The notes below the pieces were generated by a model. That model was not told the DNA's origin, did no database searches, and saw only the letters and a list, made by a program, of their open reading frames with translations. Position numbers and translations under genes: made by a program. From assembly GCA_030690265.1 (NCBI GenBank), contig JAUYHA010000049.1, positions 1-64,000 on the forward strand: a DNA stretch of 64,000 bases, written 5' to 3'. Position 1 is the first letter of the stretch. Each line of letters begins with the position of its first letter. The stretch is from Dehalococcoidales bacterium. GTDB lineage: Bacteria > Chloroflexota > Dehalococcoidia > Dehalococcoidales > UBA2162. Positions 23,292-34,846 of this stretch are shown here, piece after piece.

Positions 23292-23321
23292 TTGACATTA
23301 TTCTGGAGAATCTGTTATATT
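23292..23321 (+). promoter_or_regulatory. Strong extended -10 promoter of the haem operon
   Basis: A perfect TTGACA (23292-23297) and TATATT (23316-23321) lie 18 bases apart, the latter preceded by TGT, an extended -10. It points to the regulator gene at 23398, which heads the operon. Confidence 0.8.
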
Positions 23322-23333
23322 AATGTAGATTTT

Positions 23334-23347
23334 TACAGATATTTGTA
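23334..23347 (+). promoter_or_regulatory. Candidate operator dyad
   Basis: TACAGATATTTGTA is an inverted repeat with one mismatched pair. It starts 13 bases downstream of the -10 box, in the initially transcribed region, where a bound protein would block transcription. The first gene codes a DNA-binding protein, so autoregulation is a reasonable guess. Confidence 0.4.
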
Positions 23348-23397
23348 GTTTTGGGTATTTTTAATAACAGTTCCTATTTATCCAGGTGAGGTGATTC

Positions 23398-24054
23398 TTG
23401 TCTCAAGAGCCTTTCCTCAGTATCAGTGAAGCCAGTCATCTGCTGGGTGTCAGCGAAGCCGCCCTGCGTCAGTGGACAGATGAAGGGAAAATAAAGGCAT
23501 TTATCACTCCGGGTGGCCACCGCCGCTATGCCAGGGCAGAGCTAAGAAAACTGATGAGTTCGCAGACCAAGATACTGGGCATAAAGGATTTAGCTGCCGG
23601 GCTGGAGGAAACCGCCGGACAGCACCGGGAAATTTCCCGGGCTTCCCTGAAGGACACTGCCTGGTTCAACAAGCTGAGTGAGGAATCACAAACACATCTT
23701 GCCGAGCTCGGCAGGCAGCTGCTCAACCTGATTATAAAATACATTACCGAGCCTTCCCATCGGGAAGAAACTATCCGGATGGTCCGGGAAATCGGCCGTA
23801 ATCACGGTGAAACATTAGCCAGGTCAGGACAACCCCTTACTGATTCTGTGGAGGCTTTCCTTTTACACCGGGAGCCGATTATGCAGGCGGTCGCTCACCT
23901 GATGAGAAAAAGAGAGGGCGTTACCGGCCGTATCGTTGAGGCAATACCGATGGTTGCCAGGGCTATGGATGAAGCCCTGACCGCTCTGGTGGCTGCTCAT
24001 CAGCAGCACCGCAACGGGGTTAAGACAGCTAGTACCGGAGGCAATTCTGTATGA
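23398..24054 (+). CDS. MerR/excisionase-type regulator with RsbRD-like helical sensor domain
   Basis: A 218-aa protein. Residues 6-50 form a MerR-type winged helix (LSISEASHLLGVSEAALRQWTDEGKI, then PGGHRRYARAELRKL). Residues 85-205 form an all-helical domain resembling the RsbRD N-terminal sensor fold, with VREIGRNHGETLARSGQPLTDSVEAFLLHREPIM. Conserved-looking histidines H136 and H157 sit in that domain. TTG at 23398 follows GAGGTG. The stop overlaps the ATG of ahbC (ATGA). As first gene of the haem operon it probably controls it; sensing haem, a porphyrin or a gas is inference. It could equally be a general stress sensor. Confidence 0.75.
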   Translation: MSQEPFLSISEASHLLGVSEAALRQWTDEGKIKAFITPGGHRRYARAELRKLMSSQTKILGIKDLAAGLEETAGQHREISRASLKDTAWFNKLSEESQTHLAELGRQLLNLIIKYITEPSHREETIRMVREIGRNHGETLARSGQPLTDSVEAFLLHREPIMQAVAHLMRKREGVTGRIVEAIPMVARAMDEALTALVAAHQQHRNGVKTASTGGNSV

Positions 24055-25202
24055 TATCAATCACCCGTTTACTCTGTGACAATGTTGGTCCCGGTGACCA
24101 TTTTCGCTATGAAAAAAAGGATGTACCCAGGCCGGTAGTGGTCTGGAACTGCACGCGGCAGTGTAATTTGAGCTGTATCCATTGCTACGCCAGTGCCGAT
24201 AACCGGAAATCTCCGCAGGAGATGAGTACCGCCGCCGGAAAAGCCTTTATTCATGACCTGGCTGATTTTGGTGTTCCGGTCATCTTGTTCTCCGGAGGCG
24301 AACCTTTACTCCGCAAAGACCTCTTTTCACTGGCAAATCTGGCTCAAGAACTGGGGGTAAGAATCGCCCTTTCCACGAACGGAACTCCGATTACCGGTGA
24401 GATAGCCGAACAAATCAAGGACACCGGTTTTGCCGAAGTTGGCATCAGTCTGGATGGCATCGGGGCTAACAACGACCGCTTTCGTGGCAAGAGTGGTGCT
24501 TTCGAGAATGCCCTGGCCGGTATCAGGAACTGTGTTGCTCTGGGCTTGAGGGTATCACTGCGGTTGACCATCACCGGCTTTAACTACCAGGAAATCCCGG
24601 CTATTTTCCGCCTGGTGGAGAAAGAAGGCATCGACCGTGTTTGTTTCTATCACCTGGCATATTCGGGGCGGGGCCGCAGCCTGCAGGCGAATGACATTGA
24701 CCACGCCCAGACCAGGTCAGTCGTGGACATGATTTGTCAGCACACGCTGGACCTTTACCAGCGCGGCCTGCGTAAAGAAATTCTTACCGTTAGCAATCAT
24801 GCCGATGGTGTCTATCTCTATCTCAAACTGAAAAAAGAAGACCCGCAGCGGGCTGAAAAAGTGCTGGAACTGCTGCGGATAAACGGCGGCAACAACTCCG
24901 GCATCAAAATCGGCGCCGTTGATGACCGGGGTAATGTCCATCCGGACCAGTTCTGGCAGCATTACTCCGTGGGTAATGTTCTGGAGCGAAAATTTGCTGA
25001 TATCTGGACGGATACTTCCGCACCACTGTTTGGCGGCTTAAAAGACCGCCGGAGCCTGCTCAAAGGTCGCTGTGGCCTCTGTAATTACCTGGATATCTGT
25101 AACGGCAACCTGCGGGTCCGGGCTGAGGCAGCCTTTGGCGATGTCTGGGCGGAAGACCCGGCCTGCTATTTAACTGATGAGGAGATTGGCATCAAATCAT
25201 GA
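24051..25202 (+). CDS. ahbC: Radical SAM 12,18-didecarboxysiroheme deacetylase (AhbC)
   Basis: A 383-aa radical SAM enzyme of the AhbC/NirJ group. AhbC removes two acetate side chains from didecarboxysiroheme to give iron-coproporphyrin III. The cluster motif is C38-x3-C42-x2-C45 (CNLSCIHC), with GGEPL near 85 and a SPASM-like C-terminal cysteine set (CGLCNYLDIC...C) for an auxiliary cluster. The ending FGDVWAEDPACYLTDEEIG is characteristic of the family. I call it AhbC rather than NirJ because an AhbD-like gene follows and no nirS or nirF is in view. It overlaps both its neighbours by 4 bases. Confidence 0.88.
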   Translation: MISITRLLCDNVGPGDHFRYEKKDVPRPVVVWNCTRQCNLSCIHCYASADNRKSPQEMSTAAGKAFIHDLADFGVPVILFSGGEPLLRKDLFSLANLAQELGVRIALSTNGTPITGEIAEQIKDTGFAEVGISLDGIGANNDRFRGKSGAFENALAGIRNCVALGLRVSLRLTITGFNYQEIPAIFRLVEKEGIDRVCFYHLAYSGRGRSLQANDIDHAQTRSVVDMICQHTLDLYQRGLRKEILTVSNHADGVYLYLKLKKEDPQRAEKVLELLRINGGNNSGIKIGAVDDRGNVHPDQFWQHYSVGNVLERKFADIWTDTSAPLFGGLKDRRSLLKGRCGLCNYLDICNGNLRVRAEAAFGDVWAEDPACYLTDEEIGIKS

Positions 25203-26329
25203 CCGGAGAGATAAACGGCAAACCAAGCCCGGCTGACCTGCTCACCCCCAGACTGCACCTGGTAGCCTGGGAACTCACCAAGAGTTGTAACCTGTTTTGT
25301 GCCCACTGCCGGGGTTCATCGGCGCCCGATACTTACTCTGACGAATTGACTGCCGATGAGTGCTTCCGGGTAATCGACCAGATACGGGAAGTGGGGCGCC
25401 CGATTCTTATCCTGAGCGGGGGGGAACCACTGGCTCGTCCTGATGTAATGGAAATAGCCCGCTATGCGGTGAGCAAAGAGCTGAGAGTGGTTATGGGCAC
25501 CAACGGCACTCTGATTACTGAAGAGGTTGCCTCACAGTTGAAGGAGGTGCCCGTATCCCGTCTCGGCATAAGCCTGGATTTCCCGGTGGCAGAGCTTCAG
25601 GATGACTTCCGTGGTCAGGCTGGTGCCTTTGCGGCAGCTATGAAAGGCATCACCAATGCCCGGCAGGCGGGAATTGAGCTCCAGATTAATAGCACCATCA
25701 CCAGGCTAAATGCGCCCTATCTGGACGAATTGCTGAGTACCGCCCTTGAAGTGGGAGCGGTCGGCTTCCATCCCTTTTTGCTGGTGCCGACGGGACGGGG
25801 TAAGGGGCTTGAATCGGTGGAGCTATCGCCCCGGGAATACGAGGCAACGCTGAACTGGATTTATGATAAGGTAAAGAGCCTGGGAGAAAGCATTTTCTTC
25901 AAACCCACCTGCGCCCCCCATTACCTGAGGGTTATGAAACAAAGACAGAGGCAGGAGCACTCACCGGAGGTAACTCCTGAGGCGAAAACTACCCCCGGCC
26001 ACCCGTCGGCAAATGCCATCACCCGCGGCTGTCTGGCGGGCACCGGCTTTGCCTTCATCTCGCATCGGGGCGATGTCCAGGGCTGTGGCTATCTCAGCCC
26101 CGTCGCCGGTAATGTCAGAGAGCAATCATTTGCTCAAATCTGGAACAACTCCCCTCTATTTAATAGCCTGCGGAACCTGGCTAATTATGAAGGGAAGTGC
26201 GGTTACTGCGAGTATAAGAGGCTCTGCGGTGGCTGCCGGGCTCGGGCTTACGAAGCCACCGGTGATTATCTTGAAGCCGAGCCTTACTGCGTTTATGAAC
26301 CAGCCGCAGTCTCAGGAAGGACGAAGTAA
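25199..26329 (+). CDS. ahbD: Radical SAM haem b synthase (AhbD)
   Basis: A 376-aa radical SAM protein that oxidatively decarboxylates the two propionates of iron-coproporphyrin III to the vinyl groups of haem b. The motif C30-x3-C34-x2-C37 (CNLFCAHC) binds the SAM cluster, LSGGEPLARPDV follows, and the C-terminal CGYCEYKRLCGGCRARAYEATGDYLEAEPYC supplies the auxiliary cluster. That ending is typical of AhbD. A loop around residues 240-270 (rich in Gln, Pro and Thr) is an insertion of unknown role. ATG overlaps the ahbC stop. Confidence 0.88.
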   Translation: MTGEINGKPSPADLLTPRLHLVAWELTKSCNLFCAHCRGSSAPDTYSDELTADECFRVIDQIREVGRPILILSGGEPLARPDVMEIARYAVSKELRVVMGTNGTLITEEVASQLKEVPVSRLGISLDFPVAELQDDFRGQAGAFAAAMKGITNARQAGIELQINSTITRLNAPYLDELLSTALEVGAVGFHPFLLVPTGRGKGLESVELSPREYEATLNWIYDKVKSLGESIFFKPTCAPHYLRVMKQRQRQEHSPEVTPEAKTTPGHPSANAITRGCLAGTGFAFISHRGDVQGCGYLSPVAGNVREQSFAQIWNNSPLFNSLRNLANYEGKCGYCEYKRLCGGCRARAYEATGDYLEAEPYCVYEPAAVSGRTK

Positions 26330-26337
26330 AGTATAGA

Positions 26338-27318
26338 ATGTCTCTTGACACTATTGACCGAAAACTATTCAGTCTGCTTCAAAAAGATTTTCCTTTAAAT
26401 AAAGAACCTTACGCCGCCCTCGGGCTGAAGCTGGGGATTGGCGGTGATGAGGTAATCCGGCGTATTGAACAACTAAAGTCTAAGGGAATGGTGCGGCAGA
26501 TAGCCCCGATTATCGATTCCAGACGGCTTGGCTATCAGCCTACCCTGGTGGCAATGAGAGTGGCAGAGGCTGAGTTAGAGAGGGTAGGGAGTCTTATCAG
26601 CGAGCACCCCGGAGTTAGTCACTGCTATGAACGAACTCACCGCTTTAATGTCTGGTTTACCCTGGCTCTGCCTGCCGAAGTTGATGTAGAAAATGAGCTA
26701 GAGCAGTTTAGGAATATCAATGGCGTTCAGGCTGCTTTTAGTCTGCCGGTAGTAAAGGAATTCAAGCTGAGTACCCATTTCAGCCTGGACGGCGAGAAAC
26801 CGGAAAAGGTAGCGGACAGGTCAAAGCCTGGTAAAATGACTCAAGAAGTTAAACTCTCACCGACAGATAGGCAGTTAATCAATGAGCTACAGCAGGACCT
26901 GCCGCTGACTGACACCCCGTTCTCCGCTATGGCGGAGCATCTTGGTATGAGCCAGGATGATTTTTTAGCCCGCTGCCAGTCACTTCAGCAATATGGCATT
27001 ATCCGCCGGTTTGCGGCAGAAGTTAACCACCGTCAAGCCGGTTTCATGGCTAATGCCATGACCTGCTGGATAGTCCCTCCGGAAAAGATAGAGATAATAG
27101 CACCAAGACTGGCGGAGCTATCTCAGGTAAGCCACCTCTATGAAAGAAAGACAAACCCGCTCTGGAGCTACAACCTCTTTGCCATGATTCACGGGAACAG
27201 TAAAGAGGTATGTCAGGAAACAGCTAACCAGGTGGCAACTGAGACCGGGCTTAGCGACTATGTTATGCTTTTTAGCACCAGAGAATTTAAGAAAACGAGA
27301 GTTAAATACCTGGTATGA
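26338..27318 (+). CDS. ahbAB: Fused siroheme decarboxylase AhbA-AhbB (Lrp/AsnC-like)
   Basis: A 326-aa protein with two AsnC/Lrp-like units in tandem, at about 1-160 and 175-326. Each has a winged helix (DTIDRKLFSLLQKDFPL and SPTDRQLINELQQDLPL) followed by a RAM-like ligand domain containing the paired SHCYERTHRFNVWF and SHLYERKTNPLWSYN. These are the hallmarks of AhbA and AhbB, which together remove two acetate carboxyls from siroheme. Usually the two are separate polypeptides that form a dimer; here a 15-residue Lys/Pro-rich linker joins them. Despite the helix-turn-helix it is an enzyme, not a regulator. It lies 8 bases after ahbD. Confidence 0.87.
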   Translation: MSLDTIDRKLFSLLQKDFPLNKEPYAALGLKLGIGGDEVIRRIEQLKSKGMVRQIAPIIDSRRLGYQPTLVAMRVAEAELERVGSLISEHPGVSHCYERTHRFNVWFTLALPAEVDVENELEQFRNINGVQAAFSLPVVKEFKLSTHFSLDGEKPEKVADRSKPGKMTQEVKLSPTDRQLINELQQDLPLTDTPFSAMAEHLGMSQDDFLARCQSLQQYGIIRRFAAEVNHRQAGFMANAMTCWIVPPEKIEIIAPRLAELSQVSHLYERKTNPLWSYNLFAMIHGNSKEVCQETANQVATETGLSDYVMLFSTREFKKTRVKYLV

Positions 27319-27971
27319 AGAAAGACCGGAAAACTAAATATTTCCCCCTTTTCCTGAATGTTGAGGGTAAAAAGTGCCTTGTGGTCGGCGGTGGCCAGGT
27401 GGCTCTGCGTAAGGTTAAGGTTCTGCTGGAGCACGGGGCTGATGTTGAAGTTATCAGTCCCGACCTCTGTGCGGAGTTGGTCAGGCTTGCCGATGGTGGA
27501 GCAATACGTGCTTTCTGCCATGAATACCGGGAGGGAGACCTGGCAAATACCCTGGTTACCATTGCCGCAACTGATAATGAGGACACTAACCGACGAGTAG
27601 CCGCTGAGGCTCGAAGGAGGGCAGTCCTGGTCAATGTGGTCGATGATGCCGAAAACTCTGATTTCATCTTTCCTTCCTATCTGCGCCGGGGAGATGTTAC
27701 TATCGCCGTCTCTACTGCCGGACGGAGTCCCGCTTTAGCCCGAAAGCTCCGAACCAGATTGGAGGAAACATTCGGAGACGAGTATGCTTCTCTGGCTCTG
27801 CTAATTGACGAAGTGCGGTCTGAAGTAAAGAAGCAGGGAATAAAAGTGGACGGTGATACCTGGCAGGAAGCCCTGGATACGGATTTGCTTCTCAGCCTGC
27901 TGAAGAAAGGGGAGAGGGAGAAAGCCAAAGCCAGTCTACTAAGTAATTTGAAAACAAAACATTTATCTTAG
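27315..27971 (+). CDS. sirC: Precorrin-2 dehydrogenase / sirohydrochlorin ferrochelatase
   Basis: A 218-aa Met8/SirC/CysG-N type protein. FPLFLNVEGKKCLVVGGGQVALRKV is the NAD-binding start, and VNVVDDAENSDFIFPSYLRRGDVTIAVSTAGRSPALARKLR is the family hallmark. It oxidises precorrin-2 to sirohydrochlorin with NAD and may also insert iron. No separate chelatase (SirB/CbiX) is seen in the window, so dual function is plausible. The ATG overlaps the ahbAB stop by 4 bases. Confidence 0.92.
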   Translation: MKKDRKTKYFPLFLNVEGKKCLVVGGGQVALRKVKVLLEHGADVEVISPDLCAELVRLADGGAIRAFCHEYREGDLANTLVTIAATDNEDTNRRVAAEARRRAVLVNVVDDAENSDFIFPSYLRRGDVTIAVSTAGRSPALARKLRTRLEETFGDEYASLALLIDEVRSEVKKQGIKVDGDTWQEALDTDLLLSLLKKGEREKAKASLLSNLKTKHLS

Positions 27972-27997: not shown

Positions 27998-29260
27998 ATG
28001 AACATTTGTCTGGTCGGGATAAATCAGCACACCGCCCCGGTGGCTATCCGGGAGAAGGCTGCCATCAGGTCTGAAGACCTCGGTGAGGCTCTTGAGCTGC
28101 TTCGCTCTCAGGCGTCCCACGGAGTGATTCTTTCCACCTGTAACCGCACCGAAGTCTATACTATCCCCGGTGACAACGGCTCCTTTGAGAGGGCGAGCTT
28201 TAATTTTCTGAAAACTCACCTGGATATTCCGGAGACCTCATTGCTCAAGCACGCTTATATCCTGGAAGGTGAGGAGGCAGTGGAGCACCTGTTCCGTACT
28301 GCCAGTGGTCTTGACTCAATGGTCATCGGTGAGTATGAAATTCTGGGACAGCTGCGACAGGCGCTGAAGACTGCGGAAAGCCTGGGGATGGTAAACCTGC
28401 CCTTGCGTCACATTTTTCAGAGCGCCATCCGTATTGGCAGACGGGTGCGGCAGGAAACCGGAATCAGCAAAAGCCCCTTCTCCGTCAGCTCGGTAGCGGT
28501 GGAGCTAGCGGTGAAGGTTTTGGGCAACCTTAAAAGTTGCCGCATGCTCATCATCGGTGCTGGCGAAGCGGGAAAACTGGTGGCTAAAGCGGCCAAAGAC
28601 AGAGGAGTCTCTCAGATAATTGTTGCCAGCCGGACTCAGGCAAGGGCTTCAAACCTGACCGAAATGCTGGGCGGTATCCCGACCAGCCTGGATAACCTGG
28701 AAGAGAAACTGGCTACCTGCAATATTGTCGTCGCCTGTGCTGATGCCCCCCGCTACCTGCTGGATGTTTCCCGGATGGAAAAGACAATGAGCCGAAGGCC
28801 CGAGCTTCCCCTGGTGATAATTGATATCGCTGTCCCCCGCAATGTAGAGCCAGCGGTGGCAGGACTAAAGAATGTTTTTCTTCACAACATTGACGACCTT
28901 TCCCAGATTTCCGAGCAGAACCGCCGGCAGCGGGAACTGGAAGTCAGAAAAGTTGAAAAAATCATATCAGCGGAACTGGCTAAGTTTGCCGCCTGGTGGC
29001 AGGGTTTTAAGGTCAGACCGCTGATTCGGGCTATGATGAGCCGGGCTGAGGAGATACGCCGTTCTCACCTGGAGCGCACTGTGAAAAAGTTACCCGAGCT
29101 ATCTGACGACGAACGGTTCCATCTGGAAATGATGACCAGAGCAATTGTCACCAAGATACTGAAGGAGCCAGTCCAGAATCTTAAAACCAAAAAGTCTGAT
29201 AATAATGATTACGCAGCAATGGCAAAAGAGCTTTTCCAGCTGGATGAAGAGAAGTATTGA
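27998..29260 (+). CDS. hemA: Glutamyl-tRNA reductase
   Basis: A 420-aa enzyme reducing glutamyl-tRNA(Glu) to glutamate-1-semialdehyde with NADPH. The catalytic Cys is C48 in ILSTCNRTEVY; DSMVIGEYEILGQ follows, then an NADPH domain starting IIGAGEAGKL near 182 and the C-terminal dimerisation helices from about 310. It opens the C5 route and is followed by hemC through TGATG coupling. Confidence 0.96.
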   Translation: MNICLVGINQHTAPVAIREKAAIRSEDLGEALELLRSQASHGVILSTCNRTEVYTIPGDNGSFERASFNFLKTHLDIPETSLLKHAYILEGEEAVEHLFRTASGLDSMVIGEYEILGQLRQALKTAESLGMVNLPLRHIFQSAIRIGRRVRQETGISKSPFSVSSVAVELAVKVLGNLKSCRMLIIGAGEAGKLVAKAAKDRGVSQIIVASRTQARASNLTEMLGGIPTSLDNLEEKLATCNIVVACADAPRYLLDVSRMEKTMSRRPELPLVIIDIAVPRNVEPAVAGLKNVFLHNIDDLSQISEQNRRQRELEVRKVEKIISAELAKFAAWWQGFKVRPLIRAMMSRAEEIRRSHLERTVKKLPELSDDERFHLEMMTRAIVTKILKEPVQNLKTKKSDNNDYAAMAKELFQLDEEKY

Positions 29261-30192
29261 TGAGCAGGAAAATCGTTGTCGGCTCAAGGGGCAGTAAGCT
29301 TGCCTTAATTCAAACAAACTCCGTAGTAGCCAGAATCAGAGAAACAAATCCAGGCATTGAAGTCAGCGTCTCTCAGATAGCCACCCGGGGTGACCGGGAG
29401 CGCCATATTCAGCTTGATGCTTTTGAAGGTAGCAACATTTTCGTTAAAGAGTTAGAGGAAGCCCTGCTTGATGGCAGAATCGACCTGGCGGTACACAGCC
29501 TCAAAGATATGCCGACTCAAATCCCCTCCGGACTCTACCTGGCAGCGGTAACCGAGCGAGTTGACCCGAGGGATGTGCTTATTTCCCGAGGAGAGAAGCT
29601 GGCTGAGCTTCCTCCTGGAGCCAGGCTCGCTACCGGCAGCCTGAGACGAGCCGTTCAGCTTGGTGCCTGCCGCCCTGACCTGGAGGTGTGCGGAGTTAGA
29701 GGTAATGTCGATACCCGGCTGGCTAAGGCGGCTGGTGGTGAGTTTGACGGAGTAATTCTGGCTGCGGCCGGGCTGGCACGGCTTGGCAGAAGTGACAGGG
29801 TAACGGAATACCTGTCCGTGGAGCACTTTTTGCCGGCAGTAGGACAGGGGGCGCTGGGCATAGAAGCCCGTCTGGATGATAAAGAGATTGCTGGAATCGT
29901 CCTTCCCCTGAACCATTTGCCTGCCTGGCAGAGTATCACTGCTGAACGTTCTTTTCTCACTGCCCTCGGCGGCGGCTGCCGGGCACCGATTGCGGCCCTG
30001 GGCACGGTTGATGGCACCAGGTTAAGACTCGATGGAATGGTGGCTGGCGTCCTCAGTAAGAAGATACTGCGCAGTTCAGAAGAGGGAAACGCTGAAGAAG
30101 CTGAAGAACTCGGGGTGAGGCTGGCTCAAAAGCTGGTCAAAATGGGAGCCGAAGAATTTCTCGCTGAAGCAAAAAGAGATGAAAGCCGGTAA
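29260..30192 (+). CDS. hemC: Hydroxymethylbilane synthase (porphobilinogen deaminase)
   Basis: A 310-aa enzyme that condenses four porphobilinogens. VGSRGSKLALIQTNSV opens the protein, D83 in LKDMPTQ is catalytic, and C240 in LGGGCRAPI carries the dipyrromethane cofactor. ATG at 29260 overlaps the hemA stop; a TTG one codon earlier is less likely. Its own end overlaps the cobA-hemD gene by 14 bases. Confidence 0.96.
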   Translation: MSRKIVVGSRGSKLALIQTNSVVARIRETNPGIEVSVSQIATRGDRERHIQLDAFEGSNIFVKELEEALLDGRIDLAVHSLKDMPTQIPSGLYLAAVTERVDPRDVLISRGEKLAELPPGARLATGSLRRAVQLGACRPDLEVCGVRGNVDTRLAKAAGGEFDGVILAAAGLARLGRSDRVTEYLSVEHFLPAVGQGALGIEARLDDKEIAGIVLPLNHLPAWQSITAERSFLTALGGGCRAPIAALGTVDGTRLRLDGMVAGVLSKKILRSSEEGNAEEAEELGVRLAQKLVKMGAEEFLAEAKRDESR

Positions 30193-31690
30193 GGTCTATT
30201 TAGTGGGCGCCGGGCCGGGCGACCCGGGACTGATTTCGGTGAAAGGCGTTAACTGCCTGAAGAAAGCTGAGGTCATTATCTATGACCGTCTGCTTGACCA
30301 GAGCCTCCTTGAGTTCGCTCCGCCGGGAGCGGAAAGGATATATCTGGGCAAGACAACCGGCGAGGCAGCCCGGCAGCAGGTTGAGATAAACAATCTACTG
30401 GTAACCAAGGCTAAGGAAGGTAAAACAGTGGTTCGGCTTAAAGGGGGCGACCCCTTTGTGCTGGGCAGGGGCGGGGAGGAAGCCGAGGTTCTAGCCCAGA
30501 ATGGCGTCCCTTTTGAAGTGGTGCCGGGAGTAACTTCGGCGGTAGCCGTGCCGGCTTACGCCGGTATCCCGGTGACGCACCGCGGGCTGGCATCATCTTT
30601 TGCCGTTATCACAGGTCACGAAGCCGCGGGGAAGTCCAGCATCGACTGGCAGAAGCTGGCTACCGGGATAGACACCCTAATCTTCCTGATGGGAATGGGA
30701 AATCTGCCGGAGATAGTGACCAAACTGGTGGAGAATGGCAGACCTCCGGATACCCCGGTAGCCGTTATCAGAGAGGGCACCCGTCCCGAGCAGGAAACAG
30801 TTGTCGCCAGTCTTGAGGATATCGTAGCCAGGGCTGAAGAATCCCATCTTGCCGCTCCGGCGATTATCGTCGTTGGCAATGTGGTCAGTCTCAGGGAAAA
30901 ACTCCGCTGGTTTGATAATCGTCCCCTCTTCGGCAAGCGCATCCTGGTAACCAGGGCCCGCCACCAGGCAAGTGCTCTGAGCCGACTTCTCTCCGAGCGG
31001 GGTGCTCAGCCAATCGAGTTGCCGGCGATTGATATTCAAGAAGTCACTAGCTACGAAGAGTTAGACGGGGCTATAGCTAACCTGAAGGAATACCACTGGA
31101 TAATTTTTACCAGCGTGAACGCCGTGGAGGCTTTCTGGCAGAGGCTCCATAGCTTGAAATTGGACAGCCGTGCCCTTGCTGAGTCGTGGATAGCCGCTAT
31201 CGGACCGGCTACCGGGCAGGCTCTGCAAAATAGAGGCGTTATTCCTGACTATATGCCTGAAGTTTATACCACAGAAAGCATCGTTGCCGGACTGAAGAAG
31301 TTTAATCTCGTCGGGCACCGTTTTCTTTTGCCCCGCGCTGACATAGCCGATGAGAAATTAGCCCGGGAAATCTATCAGCTGGGAGCTACAGTGGATGAGG
31401 TTACCGCTTACCGCACGGTGCCGGCAGTCGAAGCGATTGCTCAGGCGAAAGAGGTGATTGCTTCGGGTAAGATTGATGTTGTCACTTTTACCAGTTCTTC
31501 AACGGTAACCAATCTGGTGACAGCCTTTGGCAAAGAGCCAACGCTTAATAATGCCCGGGTTGCCTGCATCGGCCCCAAAACGGCTGACACCGCCACTAAA
31601 GCCGGGCTGAGTGTGGATATTATCGCCAGGGAACAGACCATACCCGGACTGGTAGCTGCGATAGAAGAATACTTCGGAAAGGAGGCTTAG
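30179..31690 (+). CDS. cobA-hemD: Fused uroporphyrinogen-III C-methyltransferase / uroporphyrinogen-III synthase
   Basis: A 503-aa two-domain enzyme. Residues 1-245 are the SAM-dependent SUMT ([57 protein letters not shown]), making precorrin-2. Residues 255-500 are HemD, which closes hydroxymethylbilane to uroporphyrinogen III ([20 protein letters not shown], then [11 protein letters not shown]). The fused order delivers the HemD product directly to methylation, which suits a pathway that sends all flux to siroheme. The ATG lies inside the hemC end. Confidence 0.94.
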
Positions 31691-31691
31691 C

Positions 31692-32672
31692 ATGGCAGGC
31701 TTTCCTCAGTTGCGTCTGCGCCGTCTGCGCCGCACCGGGGCGCTGAGAAAACTGGTCAGAGAAAACCGGGTTGAGGTTGGCGACCTCATTTATCCCCTTT
31801 TCATTATTGAGGGTAAGGGAATAAAAGAGGAGATATCCTCTATGCCGGGCGTCTTTCACTTTTCGCCGGACCGGCTCTCTGCGGAGATAGAGGACATAGC
31901 CAAGCTGGGAATTCCCGCCGTTCTCCTTTTCGGCATACCGGAAACGAAGGATGAAACCGGCTCCTCGGCTTATCATCCCCAAGGAGTTATCCAGCAGGCG
32001 ATACGGGTTATCAAGGAGTGTGTCCCTGAACTTGTGGTGATAACCGATGTCTGTCTCTGTGAATATACCAGCCACGGCCACTGCGGCATAATCACTGGCG
32101 GCGAGGTGGACAATGATAAGACCCTGCCCCTGCTGGCTAAAATGGCTTTATCCCATGTTGAAGCCGGGGCTGATATTGTTGCCCCTTCGGATATGATGGA
32201 TGGCAGAGTAAAGACGATACGGCAGGCACTGGATGAAAAAGGATTTCAGCAAACTGCCATCCTTTCTTATGCGGCAAAATACGCCTCCGCCTTCTATGGC
32301 CCCTTCCGAGAGGCAGCAGCATCAACGCCCCAGTTCGGCGACCGCCGTAGTTACCAGATGGACCCGCCCAATGTGCGGGAGGCATTGCGGGAAGTAGAGC
32401 AGGATATTAATGAGGGAGCGGATATCATCATGGTCAAACCAGCCCTGGCTTACCTGGATGTGATACGGCAGGTGCGTAATACCTTCAATTATCCCCTGGC
32501 GGCTTACAATGTCAGCGGTGAGTACTCTATGGTCAAAGCGGCTGTCCGGCAGGGCTGGCTCGATGAAAAACAGGTGGTTCAGGAAATTCTGACCGCCATC
32601 AAGAGAGCCGGGGCTGACATTATCCTTACCTATCATGCTAAAGACCTGGCACGGTGGCGGAAGGCTGAATAA
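31692..32672 (+). CDS. hemB: Delta-aminolevulinic acid dehydratase (porphobilinogen synthase)
   Basis: A 326-aa enzyme joining two ALA molecules. [18 protein letters not shown] opens the protein. The Cys-containing stretch [15 protein letters not shown] looks like the zinc-binding type; the catalytic lysines are in [16 protein letters not shown] and [22 protein letters not shown] lies 7 bases before the ATG, the best ribosome site in the operon. Confidence 0.96.
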
Positions 32673-32681
32673 GGAGCGTCA

Positions 32682-33971
32682 GTGAATCTGGAAAACTCCA
32701 GGAAACTCTTTCAAGAAGCTCAACGTTACCTTCCGGGCGGGGTTGATAGCCCGGTGCGTGCCTTTAAAGCCGTCGGCGGGACACCTCTTTTTATTACCCG
32801 GGGAGAGGGCTCGAGAATCTTTGATGTCGATGGCAACGAGTTCATTGACTATGTCTGTTCCTGGGGTCCCCTGATTCTGGGGCATTCCCATCCTCAGGTG
32901 GTTGAGGCGCTGAAGCATGCCGTTGAACAGGGGACTACTTTTGGCGCCCCTACCGAGCTAGAGCTAACATTGGCTAGGATGGTTTCTGCGGCGATGCCTT
33001 CTCTGGAGATGCTCCGTTTTGTCAATTCCGGCACCGAGGCTACCATGTCAGCACTACGCCTGGCAAGAGCCTTTACCGGCCGGGATAAAGTGGTCAAGTT
33101 TGCCGGTGGCTACCACGGTCATGCCGACGGCTTACTGGTCAAAGCCGGCTCCGGCTTGGCAACACTGAGCCTGCCCGATTCTCTCGGGGTGCCGGCAAGC
33201 TATGCCCGAAATACCCTGGTGGCACCCTACAACAATTCTGAAGCGGTAGCCCAGCTTTTTCAGCGCTATCCGAGCGAGATTGCCGCCGTCATCGTTGAGC
33301 CGGTGGCAGCCAATATGGGAGTGGTGCCGCCTCAGCCCGGCTTCCTGGATGACCTGCGCCGGTTGACCAGCGACTACGGCGCTCTACTCATCTTTGATGA
33401 GGTTATTACCGGCTTCCGGGCTGCCTACGGAGGTGCCCAAGGTGTTTTCGGGATTACTCCCGACCTGACCTGCCTGGGTAAAATCATCGGTGGCGGGCTG
33501 CCGGTAGGTGCTTACGGGGGAAAGCGGGAGATTATGGAAATGATAGCTCCCACCGGGCCGGTCTATCAGGCAGGCACTCTTTCCGGAAATCCGCTGGCAA
33601 TGACGGCGGGGATAGAGACACTCAAAGCCTTAAACCAGCCGGAGGTCTACCCTCGTTTAGAAAAGGCGGCAGTTCAACTTGAGAAGGGCATTGTTGAAAC
33701 AGCCTCGTCTTTGAATCTCAAAATAAATGTTTCCCGTTTTGCTTCACTGCTGACCATCTTTTTTACCGCCACTCCCCCTGTTGATTATGAATCAGCTTTC
33801 GGAGCAGACACGGCACTTTTCAGCAAATTCTTTCACGGATTGCTGGCTGAGGGAATATACTGGCCGCCCTCGCAATTTGAAGCCGCTTTTATCTCTCTGG
33901 CTCACACTGATGAGGATATCCGGTATACTATCGAGGCGATTGGCAGGGTACTTAAAGGCTTGCAAAATTGA
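32682..33971 (+). CDS. hemL: Glutamate-1-semialdehyde 2,1-aminomutase
   Basis: A 429-aa PLP enzyme converting glutamate-1-semialdehyde to ALA. LPGGVDSPVRAFKAVGGTP is the typical start, LRFVNSGTEATMSALRLAR the phosphate-binding stretch, and the PLP lysine is in LTCLGKIIGGGLPVGAYGG. GTG start with AAGGAG upstream. It is the last gene of the haem operon and converges on the HDAC-like gene with 11 bases between stops. Confidence 0.96.
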   Translation: MNLENSRKLFQEAQRYLPGGVDSPVRAFKAVGGTPLFITRGEGSRIFDVDGNEFIDYVCSWGPLILGHSHPQVVEALKHAVEQGTTFGAPTELELTLARMVSAAMPSLEMLRFVNSGTEATMSALRLARAFTGRDKVVKFAGGYHGHADGLLVKAGSGLATLSLPDSLGVPASYARNTLVAPYNNSEAVAQLFQRYPSEIAAVIVEPVAANMGVVPPQPGFLDDLRRLTSDYGALLIFDEVITGFRAAYGGAQGVFGITPDLTCLGKIIGGGLPVGAYGGKREIMEMIAPTGPVYQAGTLSGNPLAMTAGIETLKALNQPEVYPRLEKAAVQLEKGIVETASSLNLKINVSRFASLLTIFFTATPPVDYESAFGADTALFSKFFHGLLAEGIYWPPSQFEAAFISLAHTDEDIRYTIEAIGRVLKGLQN

Positions 33972-33982
33972 TTGCTCAGCGT

Positions 33983-34846
33983 CTAACCAGACAGCTCAGC
34001 CAGGCAGGCGATAATACGGGGTATGGTATATCTTGCCACTGCCCGGCCGGAACCACCGCACAGGATAGTGATTAACCTTCCCCAGCATACCTTATCAGCC
34101 ACCTCTTTAAATAAGAAGGCAAGCCTGGGGTGGCAATCCGGGGTCAAGCCCTTATCTCCGTACTCTCCCCGGGTAGCATCGTAACCGAACTCCCAGAAAA
34201 TATACTCCGGTGCAAAGGCTATTGTCCGGGAGATAAACGCCTCTTTAACCAGGTTGAGATACTCCTCATCCGAGGTGCGGTTGGGAATTCTAACATCTAC
34301 ATTGTTGTTACTATCAGAGTAGTTTTGATGGCAAAAGCAGATGTGAAGCACATCTTTATCATCCTGAAAGATGTCCCTGGTGCCGTCGCCGTGGTGGCAA
34401 TCGGTGTCAACTATAACGGCTCGCTTTACCCCCTCTTTCCTGAGAGCTTTTATAGCCAGGGCGGCTCCATTAAAATAGCACATTCCCCCGTAAAAATTTC
34501 TCCCGGCGTGGTGGTCGCCAAAGCTGGTAAAGATGAAAGCATTGTCAATTTTCCCCTGCCGGATTTCTTCCGCTGCCTGAACGGTGCCTCCGGCCGAGTA
34601 TAAAGCTGACTCATAGTCCCCGGTCATCTTTACCCTTCGCACCATAGCTTCGGAGTGTACCTCAAGCAACAGTTCTTCAGAGAGCGGCTCCAGGTAGTAA
34701 AGTCCGTTACGGGAGTCATAAACGGCATCATAGTAGAAGACATTTTCCCGCTCAAGAATGCCGGAAAGGGCTTGAGGGAAGTCTCTCAGCCTTTCTCCCT
34801 GAAAGTAGGTAAAGAAGATACCGGTTCTTTTCACTGAAACAATCAC
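33983..34846 (-). CDS. HDAC-like zinc hydrolase with altered active site
   Basis: A 287-aa protein of the histone deacetylase/acetylpolyamine amidohydrolase superfamily. Visible are the His pair H112-H113 (SFGDHHAGRNFYGGMCYFN), zinc ligands D149 and H151 (VDTDCHHGDGT), and probably D223 (FGYDATRGEYGD). The catalytic Tyr of the usual GGY motif is replaced: the segment reads LCGGSGRAVAR, Ser at 266. The first 40 residues also differ from classic HDACs. The deacetylated substrate is unknown, and activity may differ from true deacetylases. GTG at 34846 is the likely start, with no clear ribosome site. Confidence 0.82.
   Translation of the reverse strand: MIVSVKRTGIFFTYFQGERLRDFPQALSGILERENVFYYDAVYDSRNGLYYLEPLSEELLLEVHSEAMVRRVKMTGDYESALYSAGGTVQAAEEIRQGKIDNAFIFTSFGDHHAGRNFYGGMCYFNGAALAIKALRKEGVKRAVIVDTDCHHGDGTRDIFQDDKDVLHICFCHQNYSDSNNNVDVRIPNRTSDEEYLNLVKEAFISRTIAFAPEYIFWEFGYDATRGEYGDKGLTPDCHPRLAFLFKEVADKVCWGRLITILCGGSGRAVARYTIPRIIACLAELSG

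Follow-up and report, generated by a model that had tools for sequence, protein, structure and literature searches.

We analysed a window comprising the whole 64,000-nucleotide stretch of contig JAUYHA010000049.1 from a Dehalococcoidales metagenome-assembled genome (Chloroflexota), in which a complete ahb/hem operon begins with a gene for a putative transcriptional regulator. The gene order is regulator, ahbC, ahbD, an ahbA-ahbB fusion, sirC, hemA, hemC, a cobA-hemD fusion, hemB, and hemL (Table 1). As the preliminary description of this locus had stated, the regulator open reading frame lies ahead of ahbC and overlaps its start, with the stop and start codons sharing the ATGA at 24051-24054. 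Because the radical SAM proteins scored below the NCBIfam equivalog cut-offs (518 against 650 bits for AhbC and 459 against 500 bits for AhbD), we named both by their best family and context.

Table 1. Features of the regulator gene, its upstream region, and the haem operon in the window.
Feature	Position	Strand	Remarks
Sigma-70-type promoter	23292-23321	+	TTGACA (23292-23297), 18 bp, TGT + TATATT (-10, 23316-23321)
Candidate operator	23324-23353	+	Three tandem 10-bp direct repeats, TGTAGATTTT / TACAGATATT / TGTAGTTTTG
Earlier "dyad" TACAGATATTTGTA	23334-23347	.	Repeat unit 2 and start of unit 3; 6/7 pairs
Regulator gene	23398-24054	+	218 aa, TTG start, AGGTGA ahead; homologous family found across Chloroflexota
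BldC/MerR-type winged helix	23413-23565	+	Residues 6-56; invariant H41-R42-R43 wing
Globin-like sensor domain	23566-24051	+	Residues 57-218; AlphaFold and Foldseek (predicted)
ahbC, didecarboxysirohaem deacetylase type radical SAM	24051-25202	+	Best NCBIfam NirJ1/AhbC; context
ahbD, haem b synthase type radical SAM	25199-26329	+	TIGR04545, E 8.7e-138
ahbA-ahbB fusion, sirohaem decarboxylase	26338-27318	+	NF040708 and NF040707, both above cut-off
sirC-like precorrin-2 dehydrogenase	27315-27971	+	TIGR01470
hemA, glutamyl-tRNA reductase	27998-29260	+	Pfam GlutR_N, Shikimate_DH, GlutR_dimer
hemC	29257-30192	+	TIGR00212
cobA-hemD fusion	30179-31690	+	TIGR01469 and uroporphyrinogen-III synthase model
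hemB	31692-32672	+	NF006762
hemL	32682-33971	+	TIGR00713

Other observations concern the surroundings of the operon. The fusion of AhbA and AhbB into one protein recurs in relatives (for example, at locus L120). Elsewhere in this genome bin, contig C125 (233-1213) encodes another AhbAB-type protein, with 56% identity, and contig C109 (599-1561) one resembling AhbD; these are either second copies or contamination, the bin having 7.3% contamination. The end of the hem operon faces a convergent gene (33983-34846, minus strand) whose protein looked histone-deacetylase-like by eye and had no NCBIfam match at E 1e-40.

The near-perfect promoter reported earlier was confirmed, with 11 of 12 consensus positions matched, the best of nine matches within 12 kb. 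Beginning 2 bp past its -10 hexamer, we found a row of three direct repeats, TGTAGATTTT-TACAGATATT-TGTAGTTTTG, that scored 20.4 bits in comparison with at most 6.8 bits in 60 shuffles. The dyad TACAGATATTTGTA previously placed right after the start point is present but was misread, as it straddles two of the 10-bp units. It was not preserved upstream of orthologous ahb operons: upstream regions of orthologues retained a mean of only 3.0 of the 7 palindrome pairs (n = 41) versus 7.3 of 10 direct-repeat matches, and the dyad was rejected as the operator. The leader had no Rfam match for an RNA element. Searching the same genome for the operator 20-mer with up to three mismatches returned the window site and one other match, with two mismatches, which lies inside an apparently coding stretch and looks like chance; a wider regulon was not found in this genome.

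The repeat motif was first spotted by eye in upstream regions and then searched for across loci that were mostly metagenome-assembled. Its consensus unit is the 10-bp TRTAGATTTT, present in two to four copies per site (two in 23 loci, three in 18, and four in 7). We built a 20-bp weight matrix spanning two units from 28 ahbC-linked loci of the order and applied it to a held-out set of 14 ahbC-linked loci belonging to other orders. Operators scoring at least 10 bits were detected at 28/28 training loci (median of 20.3 bits and lowest of 6.0 bits upon leave-one-out) and 13/14 held-out loci, or 41/42 altogether. The core AG[AGT][AT]TT recurred at spacings of 10 bp (49 pairs), 20 bp (28 pairs), or 30 bp (9 pairs) in 86 of 93 pairs, with other spacings accounting for 7 of 93. 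With -10 elements assigned by consensus matches only, the gap between the -10 and the first unit had a clear mode of 2 bp (15/48 loci), and in some loci the repeat was placed elsewhere relative to the best promoter. Sites with no or one mismatch in 16 relatives lay mostly upstream of the regulator gene, and control-pattern counts in the genomes were low. The site was absent in four ahbD-linked loci and in 7 of 11 loci of other contexts. This comparison shows the regulator and the candidate repeats to be paired, with the repeats situated mostly just downstream of the -10 and over the predicted transcription start.

We also followed the regulator and its putative operator through genomes in which the gene is missing or displaced. 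A true AhbC was found in 37 genomes of the order, four of them with the gene at a contig edge. An intact regulator gene lies directly upstream of ahbC in 25 of the remaining 33, a decayed remnant does so in two (G110 and G152; remnants at L074:200-457 and L075:6566-6715), and in one (G032) the regulator is encoded elsewhere. Six genomes retain ahbC without an intact orthologue alongside: in G122, G033, G034, and G134 no match to the regulator was detected at all, in G152 the decayed remnant is what is left, and in G112 the sole match is a paralogue, distant at 32% identity. The operator does not occur ahead of ahbC in any of the six (0/6), with best scores per genome from -4.1 to 2.4. In G032, the regulator gene precedes ahbD at 1.30 Mb and has a two-unit site, and an unlinked ahbC at 1.70 Mb, 0.39 Mb from the regulator-ahbD pair, has a four-unit site with a score of 14.9. 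Co-occurrence of regulator and operator gave a Fisher p of 5e-7 over all loci and 1.3e-4 over held-out loci only, values that overstate certainty since related genomes are not independent. These patterns argue that operator and regulator go together and, since G032 has repeats at an ahbC far from its regulator gene, that the candidate operator works in trans.

Of 156 genomes in the order, 42 encode a member of the regulator family, and wider sampling gave 188 of 393 genomes for the class and 168 of 350 for the phylum. The expectation that the gene would be conserved beside ahb genes in relatives was borne out: among 61 nonredundant high-scoring loci, ahbC directly follows the regulator gene at 42 and ahbD at 8, which leaves 11 where a different gene follows. 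In a phylogenetic tree, the 60 rows of the Ahb-linked clade were set apart from all other sequences (support of 100/96). Outside this clade, the regulator gene precedes sirC, hemA, or ahbAB in 15 of 20 divergent Dehalococcoidia loci. Among 20 loci from other classes, it is followed, for example, by hemA-hemQ-hemE (L165, L178, and L171), sirC-hemA (L169, L174, and L175), or hemC-hemD-hemB (L179 and L180). At L166, in a probable phototrophic Chloroflexia genome (G618), it precedes a gene for a PucC-like bacteriochlorophyll transporter, and a TATACT there is directly followed by three 10-bp repeats. The operator matrix recognized 8 of the 20 other-class loci at p < 0.01 (combined p of 8e-9) and 6 of the 20 divergent Dehalococcoidia loci at p < 0.01 (combined p of 1e-12). 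This test is the better support for repeats in the divergent groups because lag-10 self-similarity is in only small excess there, at 6.65 and 7.0 matches versus 8.25 in the main set.

Some family members have other neighbors. Three of the 11 high-scoring loci with neither ahbC nor ahbD next to the regulator gene (L019:4007-7483, L149:1700-5400, and L151) have an operator above 10 bits and, downstream of the regulator gene, Peripla_BP_2/FecCD/ABC transporter genes of the haem, B12, or siderophore type. In several genomes, three of the g28/f10 lineage plus f4, genes for a fused TRAP permease and a TAXI receptor come after the regulator gene and ahbD, as at L062:6050-12203, L061, and L069; the g28/f10 loci also have a divergent CbiX-like gene. 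AhbC was not found in most of the genomes with TRAP/TAXI loci and is encoded elsewhere in G032; the transporter may import a tetrapyrrole precursor for AhbD. Members from family f31 (L058, L059, L065, L072, and L073) lie away from tetrapyrrole genes and are without the operator, and these regulators were probably repurposed. Considered over the phylum, the predicted regulator-operator pair is also seen at further tetrapyrrole operons of Chloroflexota and at some ABC transporters of the haem/B12/siderophore type.

Because gene linkage and site are both conserved, because regulator and site are lost together, and because a site is found in trans, there is strong support for the prediction that the protein serves the Ahb/haem operon as its dedicated regulator and has an operator of its own. 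The earlier proposal of a dedicated Ahb regulator is upheld to this extent by linkage, site, and co-loss, but the family is not peculiar to Ahb, as it precedes tetrapyrrole genes across Chloroflexota.

The N terminus of the regulator matched HTH_17/MerR in Pfam (E 1.5e-11), and its winged helix matched BldC of Streptomyces (PDB 6ama and 6amk) in both sequence (phmmer E 7.5e-6 against 6amk) and structure (Foldseek target TM of 0.82-0.89), making BldC the closest among solved structures. A GGHRRY wing of the BldC type is present, with H41, R42, and R43 conserved in the family; invariant H41 is the counterpart of BldC His46, which enters a narrowed minor groove (PMC5859096). BldC binds direct repeats (PMC5859096) and, like the candidate operator, its sites are tandem, about one helical turn apart, and variable in copy number. 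In contrast, BldC is a stand-alone HTH of 68 aa with 9-bp AATTXXXX(C) repeats and a global role, whereas the regulator has an extra globin-like domain of 160 residues, 10-bp TRTAGATTTT repeats, and a local role.

For the remainder of the protein, AlphaFold predicted an all-helical fold, both in the whole protein (44 sequences; pLDDT of 85.8) and in the C-terminal domain alone (81 sequences; pLDDT of 85.8 and pTM of 0.82). The best 18 Foldseek matches to the C-terminal domain model were all globins. These included the haem sensor globins BpeGReg, DosC, and AfGcHK at a TM of about 0.6 and, among nonheme globin sensors, 3pmd and 3pmc (target TMs of 0.66 and 0.74), with weak E-values throughout (no match below 0.001). 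The predicted domain thus resembles a globin, a fold assignment by which we do not claim homology. The combination of winged helix and all-helical sensor described previously is therefore retained, with a globin-like assignment in place of the RsbRD label. RsbRD_N (PF14361) matched the window protein at 15.1 bits (E 0.038; Pfam cut-off of 24.3 bits) and the best family member at E 0.0011, and membership was rejected on these weak matches below the curated cut-off, which included a search of 41 related genomes. Pfam gave no match of the window protein to a B12-binding domain family.

H136 and H157 had been suggested as ligand residues of the sensor, and neither is a family trait. H136 is part of a GxxH motif that we take to resemble the one ahead of HisF8 in sensor globins; it is histidine in only 11 of 61 high-scoring loci, and we rejected it as a haem ligand because it is not conserved. 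H157 is histidine in 57 of 61 Ahb-clade proteins, but the divergent Dehalococcoidia have F or L at this position (20/20) and the other-class proteins F or Y (20/20), so that by alignment H157 is a lineage-specific feature of the Ahb clade and not the haem ligand of the family. The neighboring R158 is nearly invariant in the family. With H136 variable and H157 confined to the Ahb clade, ordinary haem ligation does not appear to be a family trait.

These findings lead us to consider it likely that the regulator is an autorepressor of the tetrapyrrole/haem operon that acts on tandem repeats and is tuned by its globin-like domain. Several protomers would line up head to tail along one face of the DNA, each taking one helical turn, and would block RNA polymerase to repress the operon, including the regulator gene itself. 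Cooperative head-to-tail binding and repression are suggested by operator position and by the precedents of BldC and of CarH, which also uses direct repeats (PMC9304148). Based on gene context and fold, the globin-fold domain may sense a tetrapyrrole-related signal, such as haem, an Ahb intermediate, or an associated redox or gas cue, and the signal would alter oligomerization or DNA affinity to exert feedback control over haem synthesis.

A substantial possibility, if on balance improbable, is that the same protein and operator respond through the globin-like domain to a non-tetrapyrrole signal (a fatty acid, stress, redox, or another small molecule), with the operon being one output. The nonheme sensors 3pmd and 3pmc gave the best target TM values, MabR and RsbR offer precedents, the family is without a conserved haem ligand, and the f31 loci lie away from tetrapyrrole genes. 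Against this reading, the regulator pairs recurrently with tetrapyrrole operons of three kinds, with a pucC gene, and with transporters of the haem/B12/siderophore type, and members in other contexts are mostly without the operator too. Only tentatively do we extend the autorepressor model to a phylum-wide tetrapyrrole sensor-repressor, in which the globin domain would bind haem, sirohaem, or Fe-coproporphyrin and govern assembly of the BldC-type HTH on the 10-bp repeats. Its pocket would have been rewired (Y136/F157 to F or H136/H157) as the Ahb-operon lineage arose, matching a changed metabolite.

Activation, in which bound repeats would distort the DNA so that polymerase starts better, as with classical MerR activators, is unlikely. 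In its favor are the MerR-type HTH, the pleiotropic action and DNA bending of BldC (PMC5859096), and the 18-bp spacing of the window promoter. Against it, most loci with an evident promoter have the operator past the -10 instead of between the -35 and the -10, and the promoter in the window departs little from consensus as it stands. We give very little weight to the idea that the repeats are an RNA element, or an AT-rich part of the promoter or leader, kept with the operon for another reason. They are AT-rich and adjoin the promoter, but dinucleotide shuffles failed to reproduce them and control-pattern counts and the Rfam search were unsupportive; furthermore, repeats are gone where the intact regulator is gone though the ahb operon is kept, and are found at an unlinked ahbC where the regulator is kept. 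A classical symmetric MerR dimer on TACAGATATTTGTA is hardly credible, as the palindrome exists in the window but is refuted as a family trait by the orthologue counts above.

The autorepressor reading has known relatives. CarH/LitR proteins likewise have an N-terminal MerR HTH and a C-terminal sensor and repress from tandem direct repeats overlapping the promoter, but their repeats are 11-bp nnnnTnnACAn and their sensor binds cobalamin, whereas the regulator has a predicted globin fold. Classical MerR proteins form coiled-coil dimers on a palindromic operator in a 19- to 20-bp spacer; the regulator instead has direct repeats downstream of the -10, an 18-bp spacer, and no conserved palindrome. 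BpeGReg, DosC, RsbR, pXO1-118, and the MabR N-domain share a globin-fold sensory domain with the regulator (TM of about 0.6-0.7, predicted model), which differs in carrying this domain behind a BldC-type HTH and without a conserved HisF8. We know of no globin-coupled or nonheme globin sensor that controls tetrapyrrole genes in such a manner. Local similarity to RsbRD_N is weak, and the regulator is without a STAS domain.

The DNA-recognition mode and binding architecture are thus already known from BldC, and what appears to be new is the pairing with this sensor, the pathway targeted, and the linkage to tetrapyrrole genes throughout the phylum. In the literature searched, we found no transcriptional regulator described for the Ahb pathway, with this domain pair (in agreement with the preliminary description) or otherwise, and no MerR-globin haem regulator. 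As a candidate regulator of the sirohaem-dependent (Ahb) route to haem, the protein comes with a defined operator and with residues that can be tested, and it links tandem one-turn direct repeats, an unusual operator architecture, to a putative globin-fold sensor. Chloroflexota mix protoporphyrin, coproporphyrin, and sirohaem routes (2024 review, PMC10991733), and the repeat motif provides a handle for finding haem regulons across this phylum, where three haem pathways mix.
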